Assembly: GCF_002007215.1 (NCBI RefSeq)
Contig: NZ_MUHX01000023.1
Location: forward strand, 1 to 42,452
DNA: 42,452 bases
Reading direction: 5' to 3'
DNA from: Pyramidobacter sp. C12-8
Lineage (GTDB): Bacteria; Synergistota; Synergistia; Synergistales; Dethiosulfovibrionaceae
The translations under genes and the position numbers were made by a program. The first letter of the stretch is position 1. Each line of letters begins with the position of its first letter. Below, piece by piece: positions 14,872-17,671 of the stretch. Under the pieces are notes generated by a model, which worked only from the letters and a program-made list of their open reading frames with translations, did no database searches and was not told where the DNA came from.

Positions 14872-15933
14872 GTGAACCGGTTCTTTGTCAAACGAGATCT
14901 GGCGCCGCTGCTGATCCTCTTGACGATCCTGCTGTTTTTCAGCGTAACTCTGGGAGTATCGATGGGGACGGCGCCGCTGCCGTTCCGGCATGTGTGGGGC
15001 ATCATCCTCCATCAGATGTTTCCGGACTGGCAATGGTTCGGGGCGGAATGGCCGCGCAACGAAGTCGGTATCGTCTGGATGATCCGTTTCCCGCGCGTGC
15101 TGCTCGGCGCTGTCGTCGGCGCGGGCCTTGCCACCGCGGGGGCGGTGATCCAGTCGCTGGTCCGCAATTCGCTGGCCGATCCCTATCTGCTGGGGATTTC
15201 TTCGGGCGCATGTGCGGGGGCGGTGTTTGCCATGCTCTTCATGACGCGGGTTTTCGGCATCGCTCTGACCGGCATGTCCGGAGTCTCCGCGCTGGCCTTT
15301 GCCGGTGCGGCGTTGGCTTTCGTGCTGGTTTTCGCCATAGCGCGTCAGGGCAGCGGCCTGACGCCGGTGCGGATGGTCCTGTCGGGACTTGCCGTGTCGT
15401 ACGTGTTTATGGCCGTGACCAATTTCATGGTCTATCTGGAACAGCGCAACGGCGCCGAATCGGCGATGTTCTGGATGCTCGGCGGGCTCGGCGGCGCAAG
15501 ATGGGATCGTCTGCCGTTGCCTTTTTTCGTGCTGATCGGTTCTCTTGCCCTGTTCATCGCCCAGTCGCGCCCGCTCAACGCCTTGCTGCTGGGCGACGAG
15601 AACGCGGCGGCGCTCGGCGTGGACGTGACGAAATTCCGCCGTCTTCTGTTCACCGCCACTTCGGTGCTGACCGGGGTGATCGTAGCGGTCAGCGGTTCGA
15701 TCGGTTTCGTCGGACTGATCGTTCCGCACGCCGTGCGGCTGCTGGTCGGTTCCGACCATCGCCGCCTCCTGCCGGTGGGGGCGCTCGCGGGAGCGAGCTT
15801 TCTGATCTGGACGGATGTGTTCGCGCGCACCGCTCTGGCTCCGCGGGAGCTTCCTCTGGGCATCGTCACGGGCTTTATCGGCGCGCCGTTTTTCATCTGG
15901 CTGCTCAAAAGCAGCGGGAGAACCCCGCGATGA
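14872..15933 (+). CDS. btuC: B12-type ABC transporter permease (FecCD family)
   Basis: A 353-residue inner-membrane permease with about ten segments. It shows FecCD hallmarks: LATAGAVIQSLVRNSLADPYLLGISSGA in the first third, GFVGLIVPHAVRLLVG and, near the C-terminus, RELPLGIVTGFIGAPFFIWLL. It starts with GTG immediately after the TAA of the binding protein, without a clear ribosome-binding site, so translation is probably coupled. The stop overlaps the ATPase start (ATGA). Riboswitch control points to a cobamide substrate, although the family also moves haem and siderophores. Confidence 0.92.
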   Translation: MNRFFVKRDLAPLLILLTILLFFSVTLGVSMGTAPLPFRHVWGIILHQMFPDWQWFGAEWPRNEVGIVWMIRFPRVLLGAVVGAGLATAGAVIQSLVRNSLADPYLLGISSGACAGAVFAMLFMTRVFGIALTGMSGVSALAFAGAALAFVLVFAIARQGSGLTPVRMVLSGLAVSYVFMAVTNFMVYLEQRNGAESAMFWMLGGLGGARWDRLPLPFFVLIGSLALFIAQSRPLNALLLGDENAAALGVDVTKFRRLLFTATSVLTGVIVAVSGSIGFVGLIVPHAVRLLVGSDHRRLLPVGALAGASFLIWTDVFARTALAPRELPLGIVTGFIGAPFFIWLLKSSGRTPR

Positions 15934-16715
15934 AGCTGACAATCGAATCGCTGCGCTGGGGAGTCGGAACCGCGGATATCGTGAGCGGCGCCGACTTGAA
16001 AGTGGAACGCGGCGAGTTCGTCGGCGTGATCGGCCCCAACGGCAGCGGCAAATCCAGTTTGCTGCGCTGCGCATACCGCGTCAATAGGCCGCGCTTCGGT
16101 TCGATCCTGCTGGACGACGAAGAGGTTTGGGGTCTGCGCGCCCGGGAATTCGCGCGCCGCGCCGCGGCAGTGCCGCAGGAGATGCCGGGACAGTTCGACT
16201 TCACCGTGCGCGAGATCGCCGCGATGGGGCGTTATCCGCACAAAAAGGCGTTGCAGCGCGACGACGCGCATGATTTCGAGTTGGTGGAGCGCGCGTTGGA
16301 ATACGTGGGAATGCGGGAACGGGGCGGACGCAGTTTTGCCTCGCTGTCCGGCGGCGAAAAACAGCGCGCTCTGATTGCCCGTGCCATTGCGCAGGAGACG
16401 GACTTTCTGATCCTCGACGAGCCCACCAACCACCTCGACATCTATTATCAGCTCGAGATCATGGACCTGCTGCGCAGTCTCGGCGTCACCTCGCTGGTCG
16501 TCATGCACGACCTGAACCTGGCGGCACAGTACTGCGACCGCATTTACGTGATGAAGGACGGTCAGGTCTTCGCCAGCGGTGCTCCGGCCGAGGTGCTCAC
16601 GCCCGAACTGATCCGCGCCGTTTACCGTGTGGAGGCCAGCGTTGCTCCCAACCCCGAGACGGGACGGCCGCAGATCGTTTTTCTGCACCGCCTGAGCTCC
16701 GGCGGCGCTTTCTAA
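15930..16715 (+). CDS. btuD: B12-type ABC transporter ATP-binding protein
   Basis: A 261-residue ABC ATPase with Walker A GPNGSGKS (35-42), Q-loop Gln83, signature LSGGEKQ (139-145), Walker B LILDEP (160-165) and switch His193. It powers the BtuC permease from the cytoplasmic face. The start is the ATG that overlaps the btuC stop. A longer in-frame reading back to 14640 only shadows btuC in another frame. It is the last gene of the riboswitch-controlled operon. Confidence 0.93.
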   Translation: MKLTIESLRWGVGTADIVSGADLKVERGEFVGVIGPNGSGKSSLLRCAYRVNRPRFGSILLDDEEVWGLRAREFARRAAAVPQEMPGQFDFTVREIAAMGRYPHKKALQRDDAHDFELVERALEYVGMRERGGRSFASLSGGEKQRALIARAIAQETDFLILDEPTNHLDIYYQLEIMDLLRSLGVTSLVVMHDLNLAAQYCDRIYVMKDGQVFASGAPAEVLTPELIRAVYRVEASVAPNPETGRPQIVFLHRLSSGGAF

Positions 16716-16755: not shown

Positions 16756-16788
16756 CGTCCGACGATGACTGGATCGTCGGACGTTTTT
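16756..16788 (+). terminator. Terminator of the B12 operon
   Basis: A perfect 11-bp stem cgtccgacgat / atcgtcggacg (16756-16766 / 16773-16783) with a six-base loop and five T. The T run reaches into the stop codon of the convergent RpiR-type gene. Confidence 0.9.
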
Positions 16789-17671
16789 ACGTGCGATGTT
16801 CCACGTGGAACATCGTTTGCCGCGTGTCCTTCGTGCGACGCCGCTCTTGCTTTTTGCCGCCGACTCGGCGGATCACCTCGCCCAGCAGCAGGTCGAAAAA
16901 ATAGCCGACGGCGTACTTGCCGTAGATTTCGAGATAATTGTAGGCGTCGCTCCGCAGCGTCAGCGGGAACGTCAGATCATAGCTTCGCAGACAGTCGGTC
17001 GCCCCTTCGCGGGCCAACGCCCCCGGGCAGTAGAGAGCCGTCTTGAAGCCCGCGATTTTGTTCAGCTCGTCTTTGATAGCGGGAATCAGACAGCCGGCGG
17101 GTGATACAGTGATCAGGCACAGGTCGCTGCTCAATAGGCGCTCAATGATACTGCGATGAGTACAAATGTCATCTAAAATAAACAACGGTTTATTGAGAGC
17201 AATAGATTGGCTCTGGAATTCCTGCAGCACGAAAGAATAGGGACGCACGGCGAAAATGATGATACTGCGCGCGGCCGCCATCGCTTCGGCAAGACAGCGC
17301 AGGCGATTCCAATCCATTTTTTGGCCGACGCCCCAGACGTTCCTCAGGATCTCGTCGTAAAGCCGCCGCGGCTCATAGAGTCCGCGGCCGAAGTTGTCAA
17401 GCGCGATTTCGTATTGATTTTCTGGGATGTTCATTTTAGCTTTCCGTAGATCTGAGAAGTTATCAAATCCTAAGCTTCGACAGAAACGTTGTACAGTGGA
17501 GAATGAAGTATGGCATTGTACTACTAGGTCGCGCGTTTTCATGCGGTCGATCTCGTTGTAGTGGAGCAGCAGATACTGCGCCAGCTCCCAATTGGCTTCG
17601 TCGAGATCACTTCTGTGTTCGGCGTTGATGAGCTTCTGTTTGACCGAAAAGGATTTGCTGTCGTTATGCAT
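16787..17671 (-). CDS. RpiR-family transcriptional regulator (HTH plus SIS-like domain)
   Basis: A 294-residue regulator. The N-terminal part has an RpiR-type HTH (IDRMKTRDLVVQCHTSFSTV then QRFCRSLGFDNFSDLRKAKM). The rest resembles a SIS sugar-phosphate-type fold (ARSIIIFAVRPYSFVLQEFQ, SSDLCLITVSPAG) but is diverged. The ATG at 17671 overlaps the TGA of the upstream HxlR gene; an in-frame extension to 17854 only shadows that gene. The last residues MFHVEHRT are encoded by a perfect parS site, so the end of this protein is shaped by a DNA-binding element. Target genes are unknown; the divergent amidase cluster is a candidate. Confidence 0.82.
   Translation of the reverse strand: MHNDSKSFSVKQKLINAEHRSDLDEANWELAQYLLLHYNEIDRMKTRDLVVQCHTSFSTVQRFCRSLGFDNFSDLRKAKMNIPENQYEIALDNFGRGLYEPRRLYDEILRNVWGVGQKMDWNRLRCLAEAMAAARSIIIFAVRPYSFVLQEFQSQSIALNKPLFILDDICTHRSIIERLLSSDLCLITVSPAGCLIPAIKDELNKIAGFKTALYCPGALAREGATDCLRSYDLTFPLTLRSDAYNYLEIYGKYAVGYFFDLLLGEVIRRVGGKKQERRRTKDTRQTMFHVEHRT
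16797..16812. promoter_or_regulatory. parS: parS, ParB-binding centromere site
   Basis: The 16-bp perfect palindrome tgttccacgtggaaca is a known form of the bacterial chromosomal parS consensus (tgttNcacgtgNaaca). It lies within a 22-bp perfect palindrome, 16794-16815. It lies inside the 3' end of the RpiR-type gene and encodes MFHVEH, a peptide also seen where parS lies in coding sequence in other bacteria. ParB loaded here would organise the origin region, so this window is probably on the origin side of the chromosome. Confidence 0.88.

Follow-up and report, generated by a model that had tools for sequence, protein, structure and literature searches.

A 16-bp palindrome in the genome of Pyramidobacter sp. 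C12-8 is very probably a genuine chromosome-segregation (parS) site, and comparison of related sequences leads us to propose, with a probability of about three in four, that such sites have multiplied in this genus from a few origin-proximal copies to 53–57 perfect copies distributed over almost the whole chromosome. The palindrome lies in the stretch of 42,452 nucleotides analysed here (the window), which belongs to an assembly of 2,668,344 bases in 182 contigs. Chromosomal positions refer to a near-complete 2.78-Mb genome of the same species (G116), whose main sequence, C1, spans 2,777,081 bp.

Within the window, the parS core TGTTCCACGTGGAACA forms a perfect palindrome at positions 16797..16812 and is enclosed by a 22-bp perfect palindrome at 16794..16815 that reads cgaTGTTCCACGTGGAACAtcg, the arrangement that a sequence-only reading of this DNA had described. 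That reading called the core an exact match to the ParB consensus, which holds for the symmetric form TGTTNCACGTGNAACA and fails by one mismatch for the asymmetric consensus TGTTNCACGTGAAACA. Identical letters make up Pseudomonas aeruginosa parS2 and parS3, both reported as bound in ChIP–seq (PMC5098823). The site overlaps the 3′ end of a minus-strand gene (16787..17671, with the start picked by eye from the open reading frame translation) whose product matches the Pfam HTH_6 domain of the rpiR family (E = 9.9e-9) and terminates in ...RQTMFHVEHRT*; the palindrome thus does encode MFHVEH near the C terminus of an RpiR-type regulator. At a distance of 10 bp from parS, an intrinsic-terminator-like hairpin on the plus strand (16756..16788; 11-bp stem, 6-nt loop and T-run) separates the site from a plus-strand ABC transporter ATPase gene at 15930..16715 (PF00005, E = 1.2e-27). 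The window site and the RpiR gene are orthologous to G116 position 116,450, 56 kb from dnaA (171,988), and a stem of 11 is present at the orthologous position beside the G116 site. Coding constraint as the origin of the palindrome is rejected, the same core being intergenic at most G116 sites (45 of 57). In the congener G115, the RpiR gene (L286, around 2520) has undergone an apparent internal in-frame loss, judged by eye from the alignment, that spares the HTH region and the MFHVEH tail encoded by parS. The parS site and terminator are still present there, by itself a weak argument against coding constraint because the frame is still kept.

A scan of the window genome for further copies, as the sequence-only reading had suggested, recovers 55 exact 16-mers and none of the same letters reversed, placing the copy number beyond chance; when as many as two mismatches to TGTTNCACGTGNAACA are tolerated there are 81 places, compared with 5 for the reversed pattern. 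Exact copies number 57 in G116, 54 in the congener G114 and 53 in the congener G115, and the genomes with a perfect array each contain 65–71 sites when up to one mismatch is allowed. This perfect array is present in four of the six genomes of the genus. The remaining two congeners, G117 and G118, show no perfect symmetric site in assemblies that are 82–83% complete and divided into 350 and 470 contigs. The exact symmetric 16-mer is absent from the rest of the family (eight genomes), and across 185 genomes of the phylum only 8 hold any exact copy, with four of these, outside the genus array, having 1 each.

The segregation machinery expected to act at such sites is present as one chromosomal copy each of parB, parA and SMC, alongside DnaA. 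ParB appears canonical: it matches TIGR00180 over the cut-off (E = 7.3e-50), has the Pfam domains ParB_N and HTH_ParB, and carries the motifs ENLQRE and GERR, the latter of which we take to be the CTP motif. The adjoining ParA has matches below the curated cut-offs of named equivalogs, and SMC (TIGR02168) is found in all 14 genomes of the family, over the cut-off in 11. In G116, rsmG–parA–parB is located about 10 kb from dnaA and is directly preceded by a pair of parS sites; G115 has one copy at the same spot, and the sister-genus genome G113 has there the TTTC/GAAA-type parS TGTTTCACGTGAAACA. This shared position ties the C/G variant of the genus to canonical parS. Together, the single parB with its adjacent parA, the many copies and the same-place parS in a sister genus uphold the identity originally assigned to the palindrome. 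Noc nucleoid occlusion likewise combines a ParB-family protein with scattered palindromic sites, and NBS sequence differs from parS. Noc is argued against by the single parB-family gene, as each genome of the genus has one TIGR00180 protein and this profile detects no second ParB-family paralogue in any of them, and by a score of 203 for ParB against the Noc model TIGR04285, below its cut-off of 315.

Origin-proximal clustering of parS is usual in most species and is not a strict requirement. In G116 the sites are not confined to the origin region; density nonetheless peaks near dnaA. Site density is 60 per Mb within 100 kb of dnaA (12 sites), 27.5 per Mb at 100–300 kb (11), 32.5 per Mb at 300–500 kb (13), 15 per Mb at 500–700 kb (6), 22 per Mb at 700–950 kb (11) and 4.6 per Mb at 950–1389 kb (4, both arms pooled), a non-uniform distribution of distances (KS p = 2.6e-5). 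More than a third of the sites (21 of 57) lie over 500 kb from dnaA. The circular mean of all sites falls at 68 kb, compared with dnaA at 172 kb, when a 2.76-Mb circle is assumed. GC skew, computed from sampled stretches totalling 764 kb, shows a plateau between 2.5 and 0.3 Mb and a maximum at 1.1 Mb that is not opposite dnaA; it therefore agrees only loosely on the position of the origin. The window had also been read as near the origin on account of its parS site. Its proximity is borne out by the distance of about 56 kb to dnaA, but a single site does not pinpoint the origin in a genome whose perfect copies are found as far as 1.38 Mb from that gene.

Sister genera carry far smaller sets. 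Perfect copies of TGTTTCACGTGAAACA number three in G110, three in G112 and two in G113; G111 has three perfect TTTC/GAAA-type sites and one imperfect site, and G107 has two imperfect sites with one mismatch allowed. In G106, G108 and G109 this form of the site is absent, even when one mismatch is tolerated. Because the sister genera have few sites, and those of G112 and G113 are close to dnaA and parB, the ancestral state of the family was likely a small origin-proximal parS set, with three relatives lacking the motif in this form.

The sites are conserved between species. For at least 34 of the 57 G116 sites, the corresponding position in G115 also holds a perfect copy, 27 established by both flanks and 7 by one, in a comparison that took in 50 of the 53 G115 sites. 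Columns flanking these orthologous sites are 68–80% identical, a divergence at which we calculate that an unconstrained 16-mer would survive intact in 0.2–3% of cases; identity of the core within pairs is true by construction, and the evidence is the number of pairs. Conservation is independent of distance from dnaA (Mann–Whitney p = 0.84). Maintenance of the array by selection is the best reading of these comparisons.

The two congeners lacking perfect symmetric sites carry imperfect versions of the array. In G117 there is no perfect copy, and at least 32 sites each depart from the motif by exactly one mismatch (for example on L336 at 4174, 4667 and 4735); 29 of 32 changes are transitions. 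Within 97 kb of its roughly 2 Mb, mostly contigs that bear sites, there are 23 one-mismatch and 8 two-mismatch places, with control counts of 0 and 0. Even the G117 copies before rsmG–parA–parB are imperfect. G118 has 2 perfect asymmetric and 9 one-mismatch sites. ParB identity to G116 is 67% in G117 and 58% in G118, with ParA at 80% and 84%, and the ParB HTH reads GIARTALANK in G118 versus GWSRSVVANK in the others, the G117 HTH being cut off by a contig end. ParB specificity in G117 and G118 is possibly shifted or relaxed. Within the genus, ParB diverges faster than ParA and RsmG, as in G118 (58% versus 84% and 71%; L154, L151 and L149).

Imperfect sites of this kind bear on the alternative that survives best, in which ParB binds scattered copies mainly to be held on the nucleoid and not for segregation or SMC loading. 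Precedent comes from P. aeruginosa, in which 400–1000 ParB ChIP peaks, mostly at the half-parS sequences GTTCCAC and GTTTCAC, are reported together with a nucleoid-associated role (PMC10419367); this recognition of GTTCCAC-type sequence at hundreds of scattered places is the point of resemblance to the array proposed here. The absence of perfect sites among the G117 copies is also what one would predict were strong sites dispensable. Three observations weigh on the other side. The P. aeruginosa elements are single arms, whereas the Pyramidobacter sites are full palindromes conserved between species, and perfect copies dominate in four of six genomes (53–57 of the 65–71 sites with up to one mismatch). 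The half-site TGTTCCAC occurs 17 times in 400 kb compared with 13 for the reversed control, no striking enrichment, and the density gradient towards dnaA points to a segregation role. We therefore regard retention as the principal function of the array as unlikely.

Hairpins beside the sites raise a second alternative, that the palindrome acts through a DNA or RNA hairpin or through REP-like spread and resembles parS only secondarily. Stems of 11 bp or longer occur no more than 70 bp from 20 of the 57 G116 sites, compared with 4 of 138 intergenic control gaps (p = 5e-9) and 2.5% of 835 points in a larger control. Seven of nine copies of a repeated hairpin of about 50 bp (with the arm GCGNNCGGAAGCCGATGA) sit 0–4 bp from a perfect parS, in a search of 764 kb biased towards site neighbourhoods. 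In ten of the 57 sites the palindrome extends by a further 6 bp or more at both ends, against 0.6 expected. ParB binding alone does not require adjacent hairpins or longer palindromic arms, and their presence at about a third of sites and at 10 of 57, respectively, sits ill with a reading based on ParB only. Other observations speak against such an element: 37 of 57 sites lack a stem of this kind, the flanks of 36 of 57 match those of no other copy, and the copy before rsmG–parA–parB occupies the position of a canonical parS in a sister genus. We judge a hairpin element to be a distinctly improbable explanation of the array. Among the 21 sites with some flank match, the shared sequence is mainly the adjacent hairpin or a local duplicate. 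A repeat of about 165 bp was considered as a vehicle for site spread and found no support beyond the adjacent hairpin, and Rfam returned nothing in six loci. Composites of parS and terminator occur in G116 at 59660, 81216, 512738, 1548244, 1691414, 2180317 and 2343300 (L168, L169, L186, L199, L200, L207 and L208, respectively), and parS is centred in perfect palindromes of 44 bp at 251091 (L179) and 48 bp at 1041925 (L195).

Gene context could instead suggest the operator of a transcription factor whose regulon uses a parS-like palindrome by coincidence, given that the sites are mostly intergenic in a genome with a coding fraction of about 85%, by our own crude gene calls. Orientation of the neighbouring genes matches background, also for convergent gaps (chi-square p = 0.78, with 37 sites then called intergenic), and there is no preference for upstream or divergent arrangements among G116 sites and no significant distance bias to starts or stops within gaps (KS p = 0.26 and 0.24). 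Random orientation argues against a regulon, as do the origin-centred gradient and the identity of the motif to known parS, which leave this explanation very improbable. A promoter scan found TATAAT-like hexamers without a consistent offset, six of them at offset −5, overlapping the site itself. Flank frequencies across the 57 sites extend the consensus to RA-core-TY. It is equally hard to credit that the window holds an ordinary origin-proximal parS and nothing more: its location about 56 kb from dnaA fits, yet this leaves unexplained 55 perfect copies genome-wide and the many G116 sites beyond 500 kb.

Several bacteria have multi-parS systems with which the array can be compared. Streptomyces, Myxococcus and Listeria similarly combine the same 16-bp palindrome in many copies with parAB near dnaA. 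In the parts of the published accounts consulted, streptomycetes have a mean of 22.8 matrix-predicted sites (range 11–65), most of them near oriC and on average 45% in an origin island of about 50 kb (PMC8743542); Myxococcus has 22 (PMC7022226); and Listeria innocua and Streptomyces coelicolor have about 20–23 (PMC7333895). By contrast, the 57 exact copies of G116 occupy both arms of a 2.78-Mb chromosome, out to the 1.38-Mb extreme. Bacillus subtilis also has several separated sites around the origin, which load SMC; these are eight parS over about 0.75 Mb (PMC8357415), whereas those of G116 cover nearly the whole chromosome. The sequence-only reading also suggested that ParB spreading may silence or tune the flanking B12 and regulator genes, a conjecture to which the lack of any orientation preference among G116 sites lends no support. 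Genes beside parS are reported to be unaffected in B. subtilis, with one case of an effect in Streptococcus pneumoniae (PMC7022226; accounts consulted also include PMC10197239 and PMC5815017). High copy number also occurs in the Phycisphaerae genome G218 (L063), where 82 exact copies of a parS-type motif are spread over 4.7 Mb. The G218 copies sit in a dispersed, partly tandem repeat of about 100 bp (L063 at 2871 and 2972, L340, L341 and L342); 10 of 10 examined copies are repeat-borne, in contrast to the 36 of 57 G116 sites with no shared flank. In 49 genomes with the 22-mer, from loci chosen across lineages among the 80 listed as L017–L096 (of 114 stretches), 48 have 1–22 sites and G218 has its 82; of the 298 genomes around G218, more than 20 sites occur in three (82, 36 and 27). 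Counts thus cover 185 phylum genomes and these sets of 49 and 298, with G218 in two of them. A high number of parS sites alone is not unique, because up to 65 are predicted in one Streptomyces and 82 occur in G218. Perfect, mostly non-repeat-borne copies on both arms of a small chromosome have no parallel in the portions of the literature consulted. Our literature search, in which some matches were judged by title, returned no account of parS or chromosome segregation in Pyramidobacter, and no account of parS sites in Phycisphaerae.

If the array consists of multiplied parS sites, as we favour, each palindrome would be a loading site for a CTP-dependent ParB clamp. P. aeruginosa ParB is reported to bind parS wherever it is placed (PMC5098823), and because sequence is the main determinant of ParB binding, sites outside the origin region should also load ParB. 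ParB would then load at most copies, making much of the chromosome ParB-bound, ParA-responsive and SMC-loading, with SMC probably loaded far outside the zone tolerated elsewhere. That zone extends to about 600–650 kb from the origin or native cluster for extra or moved parS in P. aeruginosa (PMC5098823) and Caulobacter; P. aeruginosa strains in which parS would lie 1 or 1.5 Mb distant could not be built (PMC5098823), distant parS is disfavoured in Caulobacter, and scattered parS has been termed counterproductive on the grounds that SMC motors should collide (PMC8357415), all as given in the excerpts consulted. Given this harm elsewhere, Pyramidobacter would either tolerate distributed loading or use its distant sites differently, in that these may serve, for example, ParB retention, or may not all be loaded. 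Speculatively, the hairpins beside a third of sites may shield the loading point from transcription. The window copy would be an ordinary member of the array, its overlap with the RpiR C terminus incidental.

The array calls into question the view that a bacterial centromere has to remain clustered close to the origin of replication. A chromosome carrying 57 perfect sites on its two arms provides a natural setting in which to examine competence zones, collisions between SMC motors and the reasons for centromere compactness, and the genus offers genomes with perfect and imperfect arrays, with sister genera of two to three sites for contrast. A bolder extension, which we advance tentatively and hold to be somewhat less probable than its opposite, is a dispersed 'polycentric' chromosome on which ParB clamps and SMC would be loaded at 55–70 conserved sites, many of them terminator-shielded. 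If this is true, the centromere of these bacteria would be the chromosome itself and not a point beside oriC.
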